A model generated the notes under the pieces. That model did no database searches. It was not told the origin of the DNA and saw only the letters and a program-made list of their open reading frames with translations. Of a stretch of 64,000 bases of DNA, positions 46,288 through 53,940 are shown piece after piece. The stretch's first letter is position 1. Each line of letters opens with the position of its first letter. Origin of the DNA: Verrucomicrobiales bacterium (GTDB lineage Bacteria > Verrucomicrobiota > Verrucomicrobiia > Verrucomicrobiales > DEV007); contig JARGOD010000005.1 in NCBI GenBank assembly GCA_029210205.1, positions 21,181 to 85,180 on the forward strand, read 5' to 3'. Both the position numbers and the translations under genes were made by a program.

Positions 46288-47595
46288 ATGGCTGATCCTG
46301 AACCAAACGAAACAATATCAGGCCGCTCCTGGGTTTCACTCTGGGCGGTTTTGATCGTTCAGGCGCAAAACGCGTTTAACGACAATTTTGTGAAACTTGC
46401 GCTTATCGGTCTCGCCGTGACGGTTGCAGCGGGAACTGCAATCGGGGACAACATAGAGTTCGTCCTCGCGGCGATGATCCCTCTGCCCTTCGTGCTTCTC
46501 GCTCCTGTCGCGGGATGGTTTTCGGATCGTTTCTCGAAGAGTCGCGTCATCTTTCTCTGCCTGATCTCCCAGTTCGTGATCTTCTCATTGATCGTTGGCA
46601 GTCTCTATATCCGGTCTGTTCAGCTCGCGATTTTCGGCTATTTCCTTCTCGCGGTGCAGTCCACATTGTTCTCCCCAGCGAAGCAGGGTATCCTGAAAGA
46701 AGTGATCGGTTCCCAAAAGCTGGGCTTAGCAAACGGACTGATGCAGATGCTGACAATGGCAGGCATCCTTGGAGGCATGGCTTTGGGAGGAGAATGGTTC
46801 GATGCAGGGCTGAAGTCCATCAATGCAGAAGAGGGAGTGGATCCGCAGAACGCCTGGCGCGCCGCGACGATCCCGGTCATCGCAATTGGGCTTGCGTCCC
46901 TGCTTCCGCTCATCATCGGGCTCTTCATTAAGCGGACACCGGATCATCCCGGGACGGAATTTCAGAGAAAGATCTTCTGGAGTCACTTTCTTGATCTGCG
47001 TTATCTCTTCAGCCATCCGGTGCTCAGGCGTACGGGCCTGCTTATCGCTTTTTACTGGCTCGTCGCCAACTTTATGGGGCTCGCCTTTTTCGGATTTGCA
47101 AAAGAACTGAATCCCGATGTTGCCAAGGGCGGCGTGAGCAGCTCGTCAGGAAGAATGTTTATCGTTGTCGGGATCGGACTGATCGTCGGCAGTTTAACTG
47201 TCTCCTATCTCACTCGAGGCGGAAATAAACGGACTCTCTCGATTTTGGGAGGGTTTGGTATGGCACTCGGATTGCTCGGGATGGGGCTACTTCCGCCAGA
47301 ATCGACAGCCTGGTTCGCCTGTGTTGGAGCGATGGGTTATGCGAGCGGATTTTTCATCGTCCCGCTGAATGCGCATCTTCAGGATCAGATAGAGGAAAAT
47401 CATCGAGGTCGGGTCCTTTCAGCACAGAATCTTCTTGGCTCGCTCTCGGGGATCATGGCGATCGCTGCCAGCTCACTCATGAAGCTGGCGGGCCTTTCCG
47501 TCTCCACGCAGGTCCTGATTTTTGTGCCGTTAGTCATTGCGGTCAGTATATTGCTGAACAAAATCCTTAACGTTTCCGCTGTATCTGCCGAATGA
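46288..47595 (+). CDS. MFS transporter, LplT-like
   Basis: AQNAFNDNFVKLALIGLAV N-terminus; 12-TM pattern; ATGA coupling to PlsC-like gene. Confidence 0.82.
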   Translation: MADPEPNETISGRSWVSLWAVLIVQAQNAFNDNFVKLALIGLAVTVAAGTAIGDNIEFVLAAMIPLPFVLLAPVAGWFSDRFSKSRVIFLCLISQFVIFSLIVGSLYIRSVQLAIFGYFLLAVQSTLFSPAKQGILKEVIGSQKLGLANGLMQMLTMAGILGGMALGGEWFDAGLKSINAEEGVDPQNAWRAATIPVIAIGLASLLPLIIGLFIKRTPDHPGTEFQRKIFWSHFLDLRYLFSHPVLRRTGLLIAFYWLVANFMGLAFFGFAKELNPDVAKGGVSSSSGRMFIVVGIGLIVGSLTVSYLTRGGNKRTLSILGGFGMALGLLGMGLLPPESTAWFACVGAMGYASGFFIVPLNAHLQDQIEENHRGRVLSAQNLLGSLSGIMAIAASSLMKLAGLSVSTQVLIFVPLVIAVSILLNKILNVSAVSAE

Positions 47596-49427
47596 AATTT
47601 CTGGCCCGTCTCTTTTTCCAAATCACGATGCTGCCGGTGGTGCAGTTGCTCTATCGCGTGAGGCGGACCGGCGTGGGTTTTGTTCCAAAGAAGGGTGGGG
47701 TTCTCCTTCTTTCGAACCACGTCAGCTACATTGATGCTTTTGTAATCTATCTAACATCGCCCAGGCCGGTGCGGTTCGTGATCCTCGAGGCCTACACGCA
47801 AGTAAAGCCGATTGCCTGGTTTCTGAAGCTGTTCGGAGCAATTCCGATACGAAAGACTCATGCAAAAGAAGCGATCAGCCGCACCGTAGCCGCGCTTCAG
47901 GAGGGCGATGTTGTTTGTCTATTCCCCGAAGGAGGACTGACTCGACTTGGCGTTATCTACGAATTCAAAAAAGGATTTGAGCTCATTGTGAGAAAGTCCG
48001 GCTGCCCCGTCGTCCCGGTCTACATGGATGGGCTGTGGAATTCGATCTTTTCTTTCGAGCGCGATCGCTACTTTAAAAAGAAACCGCTTGGTCTTTCCTG
48101 CCCCCTGCAGGTGGCGTTTGGTCGACCTATTCCTGCCGGGGAAGCCACTGTTGAGCGCGTTCGCGAAGCGGTTTGGGAACAGAGCGTTGAAGCCCTAAAC
48201 AAACGCCGTGATTTTGACCAGTCGCTTGAGAAAGCACTGATCAAAGGGCTGAAAAGAAATCGGCGAAAGTCTTTTCTTGTCGAGTATGCGAAAAACGGTC
48301 CCCGAGATTGGTCGAGGGCCTACACGCTCGGTCTTGCCACAGCGATGGCGCGCCGTTGGATCAGTAATCCTCCCGAGGAGGGGCAGCGCGTCGGTATCCT
48401 TCTGCCACCCGGACCGATGTCTGCGATGATCAATTACGGGCTTTTTCTCGCGGGGAAAACTCCTGTGAATCTTCCATTTACGATCGATCAACGTGAGACC
48501 GAAGCGGTCGCCAAATCGATTGCCCCACTCGGAATACGAACAGTGATTACCTCACGTGCATTCATGCCTCACCTCATGGATTTTTGGCAGGGGGATGAGG
48601 GCGTTTTTATCGACATGAAGTCGGTCATGACTTCACCGGGCGCGGGCGTCACCCTGTTCGAAAGAATTCGGGCCATGATTGAGCCTGCCTGGCTCACTAC
48701 CTGGCGACTGGACTTAAACGATCGCTCTTTGGATCGCGAAGCAGTGGGGATGGTGCGGCGACCCGGCGAGGATCCGGTGATGCTCACGGCACGGGAGCTG
48801 ATGACCAATGCGATTCAGGTTACGGCGGCGAGTTTCATCACCCCGACTGAAAACATTTTTTCAGAGCAGTCACTCAGCACGCCGGCCGGGCTCGTGATCG
48901 GTTGCTGGGCACCGGCTCTTTCCAAAGGAAAAGTGGTCACCCGCGCTTTTTCGCTTCGCGATAGCTTTGATGAGCTCGAGCGGGCAATACTTGAGCAGGA
49001 TGTGGCGGTGATCGTCGGATCACGGGAATTCTACGAACAAGTCAGTCAGCCTCTCAGCATTCGTTCGCTAAAATACGGAGTCCTCATTGGAAGGGCCAAC
49101 CACTGGGAAATTGAGGATTGGGAGGAGGCCATCGAGGTGCCTCTTGCCCGGGCATGGGAAGCACATGGTCGTGTTGTAACGATGAGTCGAACCGCACCCG
49201 ATGAAGCGAATCTGGCTCACCATTCGCACCAGTTTGGTCGTCACGCTAAGTCTGCTGGTTTGTTTTTGCCTGGAATCGCGCCGCGTATTAGAGACGGTCA
49301 AGTGTGGGTTCGGTTTGAACCCATTGGAGAGGAAATGACCGAAGGGAAATGGCTTCCGGGGCCAAGGGAAGCAGAGATCGATGAGAACGGATTTCTGTTC
49401 TTCAGAGGCCGGGATTTTGGGGAGTGA
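47592..49427 (+). CDS. PlsC-type 1-acylglycerol-3-phosphate acyltransferase fused to a degenerate AMP-binding-like domain
   Basis: LLLSNHVSYIDAF (HX4D variant: HVSYID); LFPEGGLTRLG; C-terminal Aas-like region without TSGSTGxPKG motif. Confidence 0.82.
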   Translation: MKFLARLFFQITMLPVVQLLYRVRRTGVGFVPKKGGVLLLSNHVSYIDAFVIYLTSPRPVRFVILEAYTQVKPIAWFLKLFGAIPIRKTHAKEAISRTVAALQEGDVVCLFPEGGLTRLGVIYEFKKGFELIVRKSGCPVVPVYMDGLWNSIFSFERDRYFKKKPLGLSCPLQVAFGRPIPAGEATVERVREAVWEQSVEALNKRRDFDQSLEKALIKGLKRNRRKSFLVEYAKNGPRDWSRAYTLGLATAMARRWISNPPEEGQRVGILLPPGPMSAMINYGLFLAGKTPVNLPFTIDQRETEAVAKSIAPLGIRTVITSRAFMPHLMDFWQGDEGVFIDMKSVMTSPGAGVTLFERIRAMIEPAWLTTWRLDLNDRSLDREAVGMVRRPGEDPVMLTARELMTNAIQVTAASFITPTENIFSEQSLSTPAGLVIGCWAPALSKGKVVTRAFSLRDSFDELERAILEQDVAVIVGSREFYEQVSQPLSIRSLKYGVLIGRANHWEIEDWEEAIEVPLARAWEAHGRVVTMSRTAPDEANLAHHSHQFGRHAKSAGLFLPGIAPRIRDGQVWVRFEPIGEEMTEGKWLPGPREAEIDENGFLFFRGRDFGE

Positions 49428-49525: not shown

Positions 49526-49834
49526 ATGGCATACGCAATAATCAAAACCGGCGGAAAACAATACCGCGTCGAAGCAGGCGACAAGATCGATGTCGAGAAG
49601 CTTAGCGCTGAAGTCGGAGATACCGTGACCTTCGAAGAAGTCCTCGCTTCAGGCAGTGGAGAAGGCCTTACCGTGGGTGCTCCCTTCATCGACGGGGCAA
49701 AGGTGACCGCCAAGGTCGTCGACCAGTTCCGTGCGAAAAAAGTCATCGCGTTTAAGTTCAAGCGACGCAAAGGTCATCGCAAGACTAAGGGGCATCGCCG
49801 TCATCTCACTCGTCTCGAGATCGTTTCCGTTTAA
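49526..49834 (+). CDS. rplU: 50S ribosomal protein L21
   Basis: [47 protein letters not shown]. Confidence 0.97.
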
Positions 49835-49866: not shown

Positions 49867-50118
49867 ATGGCACATAAGAAGGGACAGGGAAGCGTCAAGA
49901 ACGGTCGCGATAGTAACAGCAAGCGTCGTGGCGTGAAAAAATTTGGCGGAGAGCAGGTAATCGCCGGCAACATCATTATTCGTCAGTGTGGCACCAAGTG
50001 GCATCCTGGTAAGAATGTTGGGCTCGGCCGTGACTACACGATCTTTTCTCTCGTTGATGGCAACGTCCGGTTTGACCGTGATGGTCGCCGCGTCAATGTC
50101 GACGCAGTCGAAGCCTGA
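49867..50118 (+). CDS. rpmA: 50S ribosomal protein L27
   Basis: [48 protein letters not shown]. Confidence 0.97.
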
Positions 50119-50154: not shown

Positions 50155-50610
50155 ATGTTGAACGTTGTTCTTTTTGAGCCGGAGATTCCTCCGAACACAG
50201 GGACTATCGGGCGGCTCTGCCACTCGACCGATACATGTCTGCATTTGATCGAGCCACTTGGATTTTCGATTGATGACCGCTCTCTCAGGCGTGCCGGCCT
50301 CGACTATTGGGCAGAATTAAAACCCTCGGTTTGGTCTTCGCTGGAGTCGTGCCTCGATGCAGCTCCTGAAGATGCTTCGGTTTACTATCTGACTACGAAA
50401 ACGAAGAATGTTTACTGGGACGCAAAGTTTAAAAAAAGTGACTACCTAGTGTTTGGACCGGAAACGAGAGGCTTACCGGAAACGCTTCTGGAGCAGCACT
50501 CGGATTCCTGTCTCACTATCCCTCAAACAAAAGGGAGAAGCCTGAATTTGGCAGTCTCTACGGGGATTGTTCTGTATGAAGCGATTCGTCAGGTTTCGGA
50601 AAAACCCTAG
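50155..50610 (+). CDS. trmL: tRNA (cytidine(34)-2'-O)-methyltransferase (TrmL-like SPOUT)
   Basis: LNVVLFEPEIPPNTGTIGRLCHSTDTCLHLIEPLGFSIDDRSLRRAGLDYW; FGPETRGLPE. Confidence 0.9.
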   Translation: MLNVVLFEPEIPPNTGTIGRLCHSTDTCLHLIEPLGFSIDDRSLRRAGLDYWAELKPSVWSSLESCLDAAPEDASVYYLTTKTKNVYWDAKFKKSDYLVFGPETRGLPETLLEQHSDSCLTIPQTKGRSLNLAVSTGIVLYEAIRQVSEKP

Positions 50611-50770
50611 CCGAGCACCAGAATTTGGGTGGAAATAGGGTTTATTTGCAACAAATCCGACCGTTTCCGCTGGAAAACCCGCATTTTGCCTTGTGAGGTT
50701 TTTAAAAAAACGCTACTTAAATTCTCATTGTCTAACCTGCTTGTCTAACTTTGTAACCCTTGTTTTCCCT

Positions 50771-51208
50771 ATGGTGGCTTCTCGACCTAACTACGGCATC
50801 ACCCGCATTGATCAGCCGGAGAAAAAAAATCACGGCTATTATGTCCGCATCACACACCGTGGTAAGAGTCATCAAAAGTATTTCCCGGATAAAGCTTCCG
50901 GTGGAAAGACCAAGGCGCTGAAAGCAGCGAAGGAGCACCGTGATGGTCTCCTCTCGAAAATGCCTAAGTATAAGCAGGAGGCGGCGGCAAAGAAAAAGCG
51001 CCGCATCAAGCAATCGGGTGTTGTCGGTGTGACTCACGTTGTTTCCAAATCTCCGAAGGATAAAACCTACGAGTACTGGCAGGCAGCCTGGGTTGATGGA
51101 GATGGAAAGCGGAAGACCGCGAAATTCTCGATCAAACGTTATGGCAGTGATAAGGCTCTCGACATGGCTAAAAAAGCTCGTCGTGCCGGCCTGAGAGGAA
51201 AGCGGTAA
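50771..51208 (+). CDS. Small protein with two tandem AP2-like domains
   Basis: YGITRIDQPEKKNHGYYVRITHRGKSHQKYFPDK...ALKAAKEHRDGLL and VVGVTHVVSKSPKDKTYEYWQAAWVDGDGKRKTAKFSIKRYGSDKALDMAKKARRAGL; ATG at 50771. Confidence 0.75.
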   Translation: MVASRPNYGITRIDQPEKKNHGYYVRITHRGKSHQKYFPDKASGGKTKALKAAKEHRDGLLSKMPKYKQEAAAKKKRRIKQSGVVGVTHVVSKSPKDKTYEYWQAAWVDGDGKRKTAKFSIKRYGSDKALDMAKKARRAGLRGKR

Positions 51209-51283
51209 GAATCCGTTTTCTCTTCAAAATTCATTCGTCGTCAGCCTGTTCAGGGGCCATGTTTCCGCGTGGTTGCCTCTGAA

Positions 51284-51979
51284 ATGAACTCTGTTGTTGT
51301 GGAATCGGCTGTCGAAGCCAGGAATGTCGTCCGCACATTTGAAATCGGTGAGAACCGAATCGAAGTGCTAAAGGGCGTTTCACTGGACGCGAAGCGCGGC
51401 GAGAAACTTTTTCTCGTTGGACCCTCGGGTGCCGGTAAGACCTCGTTGCTCTATACCCTTGCAGGTCTTGAGAAGCCCAATGAAGGGGATGTCCTCATCG
51501 ATGGTCGTTCTCTCTATCGTCTCAGTCGGAGAGAGCAGGCACGGGTCAGGAATGAAACCATGGGGTATGTATTTCAGAGTTTCTTTCTCATGCCGGAACT
51601 GAGCGCTCTTGAGAATGTCATGGTGCCTTCGCTAATTCGCGGGCGAAAAGCGAAGGAGAGAGCCGCTTCTCTTCTTGAGAGGGTGGGGTTGGGAGCTCGA
51701 ACAGCTCACCTCCCGGCTGAGCTTTCCGGTGGCGAACAGCAGCGTGTCGCGATTGCACGTTCCTTGATGAACGATCCTAAGATCCTTTTTGCTGATGAGC
51801 CTACCGGCAACCTTGATTCGAAAACGGGGGTAGCGGTCATGGACCTTCTCATGGAACTTGCGGACGAAGAGGAGAGAACCTTGATGGTTGTCACCCACGA
51901 CAGTTCGCTCGCAAGGATCGGAGATCGAACTATCACGCTCGTTGATGGAGTGATTGTTTCCGACAACATCGGCGAGTAA
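51284..51979 (+). CDS. ABC transporter ATP-binding protein, LolD/MacB type
   Basis: GPSGAGKTSLLYTLAGLEKPNEGDV; LSGGEQQRVAIARSLMNDPKILFADEPTGNLDS. Confidence 0.92.
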   Translation: MNSVVVESAVEARNVVRTFEIGENRIEVLKGVSLDAKRGEKLFLVGPSGAGKTSLLYTLAGLEKPNEGDVLIDGRSLYRLSRREQARVRNETMGYVFQSFFLMPELSALENVMVPSLIRGRKAKERAASLLERVGLGARTAHLPAELSGGEQQRVAIARSLMNDPKILFADEPTGNLDSKTGVAVMDLLMELADEEERTLMVVTHDSSLARIGDRTITLVDGVIVSDNIGE

Positions 51980-52254
51980 ATCTTGCCGCGCGGGTCAAGG
52001 CTTCCGTAGAAATGAAGGTTTTTCGCAGATGGCAATACGCTAAAAGAGACCTTCGAATTCGCAACCCGGAGGGGCGAGTTCCACCTCGACGGCACTTGCA
52101 TAGTGAAGGAGTCCTGCCAACTGGTGCAGGCGGATTCCGCGAGACGAGTTGGGCAACCCGTCTGGCTTTCGGACGAATCGTAGCGATGACATTTCTATCG
52201 TCGTCTCTAGGCCCCTTGTGCGCGGGAAGGTTCTCTCGGACGACCCAACAGGGT

Positions 52255-53940
52255 ATGGTCAGTGACCTAACCCTGTTAGGTCTCGCCATTTTCATGGCCC
52301 TCGCACTGCTCCCGCGGGGCGCCTCAGGGCATCCCGCGCACGCTAAGCCGGTGAATTACCCCTACGTGGTCGGGTTTGAGCGTTTTCACTCCAGCCTCGA
52401 CGATGACGAATATCTTGCGCAGGGCGGAATGATTTTGCTGAACGAGCTGAACTGCGTTGCCTGCCACGAGCCACCTTCAAGGCTGAAGACTCAGCTTCAG
52501 GGAGTGGAAGCCACAAATCTCTTCGGAGTGGCGACACGACTCGATGACATTGATCTGGAGATCATGATTCGGAATCCCCGGTTTGTGAAGAAAGACACCG
52601 TCATGCCGAGCCTTTTTGCGGGGCCCGATCGCGATCTTGAGGAGGTGAAGGCCTTAAAGCACTATCTGGCATCTTTCCCGGGGGAAATACCCAGTTATCC
52701 AGTTGGAGATATCGATCTCGGGCGCTCATTTTATCACCGCGTCGGATGCGCTGCTTGCCATGCGCCGGAAGTTGGGTATCGGCCGCCCGGGATTCCTGAA
52801 AATGCAGAGATCGAAATGGCTGGTCTCCCAAGTGTTCCGATGAATCTGGCTGATCTTTACGATTTGGATGCCTTGACGCATTTTCTACTGACCCCCAATC
52901 AACATCGACCATCCGGTCGCATGCCGGAATTCCACCTCAGCGAGAAAGAAGCAGCAGATCTCGCCGCATACCTCAAGGCTGGCCCGGACCTTGAGTTGCC
53001 TGAAAACTTGACCGATGCCCTGACTGGTTCAGTGCCGTTCCGTCTCGATCCCGAACTTACGAAGAAAGGAGAGAGCCTTTTCGTGAGCAAGAGTTGCAGT
53101 GTCTGTCACACCCCTCCGGGAGGTAAATCAAAACGTGATCTTCACGGTTCGATGCCGCTCGCCGAGTTGGATGCGAGCGAGTGGGGAGCGTGTCTTTCCG
53201 AGCGCCCAATGGGGGAGGGAGTGCCGTTCTATGGGCTCGATGAGGTGCAGAAGCGAGCCATCACGGCAGCACTGGCACGCCTTGTCGACCATCAACCATT
53301 GAGCGGGGAAGAGGAGATCGACTGGCGCATGAAGAGCCTAAATTGCTATGCCTGCCATGAACGGGACGGAGTGGGGGGAGCAGAAACGGCTCGCGAGGTA
53401 TACTTCGGGTTTGAGACCGTGAAAGCTATTGAGCTGGGAAGGCGGGGACATCTTCCTCCGGATCTCACCAACGTGGGGGCACGACTCAATCATGAATGGT
53501 TCGACCAAATGCTTCCCGGGGAAGGTGAGATGAGAAAAGCGAGAACCTACCTCACGACAAGGATGCCGCGTTATTCGGCCGAACGGGTCAAGCCTATTGC
53601 AAAGGGGTTCCGCCGGGAAGATGAGTCGGAGGTGTTTCCTGAAGGATTGCTTCGTTACCCTTCAAAAAATGCTTTTGAAGCCGGTGCTTTTCTCGAGGCT
53701 GATTGCCGAAGCTGCCACGGAGTGGGGGAAAATAATCCAACCTCACTTCCCGGAATCAATCTGAGTTTGTCAGCGGAACGGCTCCAGTTCTCTTATTTTA
53801 AAGCGATGACTCTTGACCCTGAAAAGACGAAACCCGGAGTGCCGATGGTTCCTGCTTTCGAAAATGATCCCGAGGCAGAGAAGAAAGTGGCGGCGCTTTG
53901 GCGATATCTGAAGAAGCTTCAGGAAAGTGATAGGAAGTAG
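52255..53940 (+). CDS. Multiheme c-type cytochrome (five CxxCH)
   Basis: CVACH, CAACH, CSVCH, CYACH, CRSCH; MVSDLTLLGLAIFMALALLPRGASG signal; ORF opens at 52012 but ATG 52255 gives a proper signal peptide. Confidence 0.82.
   Translation: MVSDLTLLGLAIFMALALLPRGASGHPAHAKPVNYPYVVGFERFHSSLDDDEYLAQGGMILLNELNCVACHEPPSRLKTQLQGVEATNLFGVATRLDDIDLEIMIRNPRFVKKDTVMPSLFAGPDRDLEEVKALKHYLASFPGEIPSYPVGDIDLGRSFYHRVGCAACHAPEVGYRPPGIPENAEIEMAGLPSVPMNLADLYDLDALTHFLLTPNQHRPSGRMPEFHLSEKEAADLAAYLKAGPDLELPENLTDALTGSVPFRLDPELTKKGESLFVSKSCSVCHTPPGGKSKRDLHGSMPLAELDASEWGACLSERPMGEGVPFYGLDEVQKRAITAALARLVDHQPLSGEEEIDWRMKSLNCYACHERDGVGGAETAREVYFGFETVKAIELGRRGHLPPDLTNVGARLNHEWFDQMLPGEGEMRKARTYLTTRMPRYSAERVKPIAKGFRREDESEVFPEGLLRYPSKNAFEAGAFLEADCRSCHGVGENNPTSLPGINLSLSAERLQFSYFKAMTLDPEKTKPGVPMVPAFENDPEAEKKVAALWRYLKKLQESDRK

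Follow-up and report, generated by a model that had tools for sequence, protein, structure and literature searches.

Here, we identify a small gene of the Verrucomicrobiales whose product carries two AP2-type domains and no nuclease, and we propose, at a probability of about one half, that it encodes an abundant nucleoid-associated protein with an architectural and maybe also a globally regulatory function. The gene lies in a 64,000-nucleotide stretch (the window) that belongs to a Verrucomicrobiota assembly comprising 195 contigs and 4.9 Mb in total. AP2 domains are best known from plant and apicomplexan transcription factors and from bacterial and phage homing endonucleases. We infer that the ligand of this protein is DNA rather than RNA, that it is highly abundant and that it takes part in DNA packaging. 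Among the arguments for a nucleoid role, the histone H1-like tails of its relatives weigh most; they shift the reading of the protein from a 'regulator' to a 'chromatin-like protein'.

Translation of the window agrees with the 145-aa open reading frame given in the initial annotation (Table 1). A longer in-frame alternative of 171 aa would start at a GTG at 50693; we consider 50771 to be the correct start, since the N-termini of the orthologues align there and the promoter-like block upstream overlaps the longer frame. The product is very basic (pI 10.5; 40 K/R versus 12 D/E) and does possess the Lys/Arg linker that had been described between its two halves. Searches with family models gave zero matches to nuclease families, HNH included, in line with the original description of a stand-alone protein without a nuclease. 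The Lys/Ala/Pro-rich low-complexity tail resembling histone H1 that marks some relatives is absent from the window's own protein. The assignment as a stand-alone, nuclease-free protein of the tandem AP2 type is supported.

Table 1. Position of the tandem-AP2 gene, its parts and its neighbours in the window.
Feature	Position	Strand	Basis
rplU (L21)	49526-49834	+	TIGR00061 over cut-off
rpmA (L27)	49867-50118	+	TIGR00062 over cut-off
trmL (TrmL-like)	50155-50610	+	TIGR00185, 168 bits, under the cut-off of 190.6
Promoter-like block TTTTGCC-TTGTGA-17 nt-TACTTA, pointing at the AP2 gene	50684-50719	+	Upstream alignment
CDS, tandem-AP2 protein, 145 aa	50771-51208	+	Translation; start conserved among aligned orthologues
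Domain 1, AP2-like (3 strands + helix), residues 8-62	50792-50956	+	Predicted fold, Foldseek, repeat homology
Basic linker, residues 65-82, 8 K/R in 18	50963-51016	+	Composition
Domain 2, AP2, residues 84-142	51020-51196	+	PF00847 match and predicted fold
LolD-like ABC ATPase, downstream	51269-51979	+	TIGR02211, 2.6e-73, below cut-off

Do both halves of the protein belong to the AP2 family? The Pfam model PF00847 matched the second half alone with E=6.1e-6 and 26.9 bits, which is under the gathering score of 33.3; it matched 34 of 35 orthologues (best E 1.1e-8), and the homologues L087, L159 and L160 scored above the cut-off. The first half, which follows the pattern YGITRIDQPEKKNHGYYVR...KYFPDK...GKTKALKAAKEHRD, gave no Pfam match in the window protein, and PF00847 matched domain 1 weakly in 6 of 43 family members, at best with 2e-4. 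The two alignable repeats that had been noted by eye were recovered when profiles of the halves, built from 95 family members, were compared with each other (score 25.9, probability 71%, E 3.7e-5); the highest score among 100 column-shuffled control profiles was 15.75. The deeper alignment was needed because in an earlier comparison, based on close orthologues only, the helix alone had aligned (19.5 versus a shuffle maximum of 15.4). Arm-DNA-bind_3 matched domain 1 weakly in 2 of 43 members, at best with 0.07, and neither the integrase arm-domain models nor tyrosine recombinase matched the window protein. Weak matches to DUF1093, Ion_trans_N, HK97_gp10 and similar families were sporadic and were dropped. 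The alphaRep designed repeats, which ranked top in a profile search of PDB sequences, were rejected as repeat artefacts, because single stretches were non-significant and the overlap was confined to the domain 2 end and helix.

AlphaFold2 predicted for the whole protein the order strand-strand-strand-helix twice, with a mean pLDDT of 79 and values mostly >85 in the second half. The predicted strands span residues 11-14, 22-29 and 32-39 in domain 1 and 86-93, 99-108 and 114-120 in domain 2, each set being followed by a helix (46-62 and 126-142, respectively); modelled separately, domain 1 showed the same elements as in the whole-protein model. The best solved Foldseek match of the whole model was the tandem AP2 unit of the Plasmodium protein SIP2 (PfSIP2) with DNA (6sy0; E 4.5e-5, probability 1.00), and chains of the T. 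gondii mitoribosome ranked second and third. Domain 1 alone matched a T. gondii mitoribosome chain (9g6k_LG; probability 1.00), integrase arm domains (0.96 and 0.91) and PfSIP2 (0.87), yet all with E-values >0.05. Indeed, the integrase arm-type domains (3rmp, 3jtz, 3ju0) have the three strands and helix of domain 1 as their fold, but the window protein has neither a recombinase domain nor a sequence match to an arm model. Based on the combination of the Pfam match, the repeat homology, the models and the Foldseek results, domain 2 is by its sequence an AP2 domain, and domain 1 is, by its modelled fold, an AP2-fold domain, most likely of AP2 ancestry. The initial annotation had called both halves AP2: for the second half this holds at the level of sequence, also when each half is searched against PF00847, while the first half stays below the Pfam thresholds and is assigned by fold and repeat homology. 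Both halves fit the expected three-strand sheet plus helix by prediction, and neither appeared as disordered or as another fold.

A scan of the genome collection returned 59 loci, every one in Verrucomicrobiota. The alignment of 35 orthologues, with identities down to 60%, contains 48 invariant columns. The invariant positions, among them R12, Y24, R26, K36, Y102-W107, R114 and K118, cluster in the strands, in the beta1-beta2 loop of domain 1 (6 of 7 residues of QPEKKNH) and at 7 of 10 positions of strand 2 in domain 2, whereas the two long helices hold only 4 of 17 and 2 of 17. As the sheet is the DNA-contacting face in AP2-DNA complexes, the invariant residues are placed where an AP2 domain touches nucleic acid. 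When 54 syntenic loci were compared with the window, the AP2 protein had a median identity of 80%, against 87% for L27, 83% for L21, 77% for the LolD-like protein and 66% for TrmL. Nearly every genome sampled from the host's family carries an orthologue, and some member of the protein family occurs in 190 of 289 genomes across the order and in 35 of 388 genomes of a spread sample of the phylum. In the tree, the window's clade unites with the H1-tailed group in a clade of its own (support 100/99); the deep part is unreliable because of long branches. The gene is a vertically inherited, conserved core gene of many Verrucomicrobiales, and viral contigs and phage records gave no match that would indicate a viral origin. 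An older tandem-AP2 paralogue of 40% identity and of the THGWQVR type is encoded on a different contig of this genome (L002; G000:C173:3121-3549, minus strand) and occurs in many genomes of the family. It joins the homologues of family f2 with a support of 99/90. Its codon usage is average, and it is possibly a specialised partner or regulator.

The tails are found in two settings. In family f82 of the same order, the positional orthologue, which adjoins lolD, consists of one AP2 domain and a Lys/Ala-rich tail of the (AKKAA)n type, for example KKAAAAPVAAAPVKAAKVAKKAVKKAAKKAK. In one genus of family f3, 17 of 19 genomes encode, under a fixed criterion, a tandem AP2 with long (PAKKAA)n tails, and the remaining genera of this family show no tail. 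Since the two tailed architectures occupy different parts of the tree, whose deep branches are weak, the sequences suggest that an H1-like tail was probably gained at least twice. Tails of this kind are characteristic of proteins that package DNA, and they are also found on non-packaging proteins. Among bacterial nucleoid proteins, mycobacterial HupB is an example with a histone H1-like tail, and the f82 and f3 relatives likewise join a folded DNA-binding domain to a (PAKKAA)n-type tail. However, the folded part is HU in HupB-like proteins and AP2 in this family, and the window protein has a second AP2 domain instead of the tail. We tentatively suggest, at somewhat less than even odds, that AP2 is the folded core of a verrucomicrobial chromatin family with an endonuclease-linked origin and with the interchangeable modules AP2-AP2, AP2-H1 tail and AP2-AP2-H1 tail.

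How could such a protein organise DNA? We speculate that each AP2 sheet would be seated on DNA, and that the two domains with their basic linker would bind adjacent sites or bridge and bend the DNA. In other lineages, a disordered H1-like Lys/Ala/Pro tail would replace the second AP2 domain or extend the pair, and thereby add non-specific DNA binding and compaction. HU and H-NS act as global regulators, and the tandem-AP2 protein may also regulate globally in this manner. Two HU-family genes are encoded in the assembly as well, so the tandem-AP2 protein would not be the sole nucleoid-associated protein of its host. Every verrucomicrobium examined by cryosubstitution has condensed nucleoids (PMC2647929), and the protein described here would be a concrete candidate for a factor behind them. 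If AP2 is indeed the core of a chromatin family, it would be a further folded DNA-packing unit besides the HU/IHF-type and H-NS/Lsr2-type proteins. In the open-access literature searched, we found nothing on this protein, on bacterial AP2 nucleoid proteins or on an Akkermansia 'ERF' annotation.

A sequence-specific transcription factor, in which two AP2 domains of the PfSIP2 or plant AP2 class read two half-sites and control a defined regulon, perhaps together with their own gene, is an alternative to which we give a minor chance. Indeed, the tandem AP2 with a short linker recalls PfSIP2 on its two half-sites, and the strand residues are near-invariant; a sheet conserved this strictly would be just as compatible with sequence-specific binding. 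PfSIP2, an ApiAP2 protein, likewise has two tandem AP2 domains without a catalytic domain in a DNA-binding unit of similar length and was the only phmmer match to the window protein (E 0.022; about 16% identity). It differs in being eukaryotic and sequence-specific, and its inter-domain orientation is unlike that of the window model (TM 0.33 over the whole tandem). The strictly conserved block, which lies within the 160 bp that follow trmL, could, in addition, be an operator. Its TTT, CTTGT, T and AA columns are invariant or nearly so across 17 aligned upstream regions, and within the genus the pattern TTTTGCCTTGT-N4-TTTTNAAAAAA-CG-TA is conserved. However, a single exact copy, with zero mismatches, and one match with 3 mismatches occur in the 4.9-Mb assembly, and on the grounds of this uniqueness a regulon motif was ruled out. 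From its sequence, the block resembles a promoter belonging to the AP2 gene itself, not a binding site common to the members of a regulon; its -35/-10-like hexamers differ from the E. coli consensus, and the block was missed by a promoter scan. Two further points speak against a specific factor: a positional orthologue with a single AP2 domain and an H1-like tail is odd for the recognition of two half-sites, and the protein has no sensor domain or effector-binding part. An architectural role fits better than a specific factor because of the ribosomal-like conservation, the basicity, the codon usage and the H1-like tails of the relatives. Where the initial annotation proposed a candidate AP2-type regulator, the tails and the near-ribosomal conservation thus favour an architectural protein over a specific transcription factor.

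The position of the gene raises another alternative, namely a ribosome- or RNA-associated protein that would bind rRNA and whose gene adjoins those of L21 and L27. NCBIfam matches agree with the neighbours rplU, rpmA and trmL that had been named before, with the TrmL-like protein below its cut-off, and the gene order rplU-rpmA-trmL-AP2-lolD is preserved down to about 61% identity. AP2 domains can bind rRNA: the mtAP2 proteins of T. gondii, which likewise have no nuclease, bind fragmented rRNA in mitoribosomes (PMC11652630), and chains of these mitoribosomes match the whole protein structurally and rank best for domain 1. Conservation and codon usage also resemble those of ribosomal proteins. 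Measured against the genome's own S10-operon genes, EF-G, L21 and L27, the codon adaptation index of the AP2 gene reached the 94th percentile among 250 ORFs, sampled from stretches of the genome and from the window, similar to S10-operon genes; trmL stood at the 16th, lolD at the 41st and the paralogue at the 33rd percentile. As codon bias is weak in this genome, with EF-G itself at the 60th percentile, this sign of high expression is only suggestive. Against a ribosomal function, lolD is the sole one of these neighbours kept beside the H1-tailed positional orthologues, and in other families the homologues are located elsewhere, away from rplU-rpmA, so the link to these genes is not intrinsic. 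With this linkage lost, a purely ribosomal role had to be downgraded. Moreover, the AP2 gene has its own promoter-like block, its distribution over the phylum is patchy, unlike that of a ribosomal protein, and a tandem-AP2-HNH relative points to a DNA-acting ancestry. We therefore regard a ribosomal role as improbable and retain the nucleoid-associated protein as the best explanation.

AP2 domains occur in homing endonucleases, from which the plant AP2/ERF factors may descend (PMC3794426). The bacterial and phage AP2-HNH endonucleases share the domain with the window protein, but the HNH part is missing from it and from nearly all relatives seen. One relative, L087, is a tandem-AP2-HNH protein: PF00847 (36.9 bits) and PF01844 (25.9 bits) both scored above cut-off, and the family profile matched it across positions 21-140, that is, over both halves. 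It is 308 aa long and encoded at L148:4482-5408 on the minus strand (G272:C1); a truncated ORF nearby (L148:3446-4006) resembles by eye a fragment of a group II intron reverse transcriptase. This locus is a possible picture of the family's mobile ancestor. Stand-alone tandem-AP2 proteins are also encoded by a plasmid of Desulfocapsa and by rhizobial plasmids, in the latter case with divergent ends, so the architecture is not confined to the phylum. The one of Desulfocapsa sulfexigens (WP_015405771.1), a nuclease-free homologue of 147 aa that NCBI names 'AP2 domain-containing protein' and that aligns with 89% of the query at 29.5% identity, comes from an isolated plasmid gene, whereas the gene described here is a syntenic core gene. 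The HNH-bearing relative within the phylum and these plasmid proteins would also suit a remnant of a homing or mobile endonuclease of the tandem-AP2-HNH type, carried along without a particular function for the host. A functionless remnant is, however, incompatible with the strong purifying conservation seen in the invariant columns, the fixed locus and the vertical inheritance, and we consider it highly improbable; an endonuclease ancestry of the family is plausible. What emerges is a vertically inherited, strongly conserved, nuclease-free AP2 family of bacteria that has H1-like tails in related lineages and, within its phylum, a tandem-AP2-HNH relative; if our reading is true, the transition from an endonuclease to a DNA-binding protein would be visible inside bacteria.

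Several observations were made beside these. A further tandem AP2 protein (L091:754-1989, minus strand) carries a C-terminal region resembling DUF2971 by eye, for which no Pfam match was found at E 0.1. On the Agrobacterium vitis plasmid NZ_AP023275.1, an AP2-domain protein (L160:2551-4013) directly follows a type VI secretion cluster running from VgrG to PAAR, and a WGR-domain protein comes next. In the window, the LolD-like gene is followed by a gene (52012-53940) whose 642-aa product contains five CxxCH haem-binding motifs; the gene is kept downstream of lolD in closer relatives, and its product matched no cytochrome model above cut-off. Upstream of rplU, the ORF at 47592-49427 is similar to the second half of the large acyl-ACP phospholipid acyltransferases (NF006386). 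The transporter-like half is encoded upstream by an ORF of its own (46288-47595), so the region 46288-49427 seems to specify in two pieces what is a single fused protein elsewhere.
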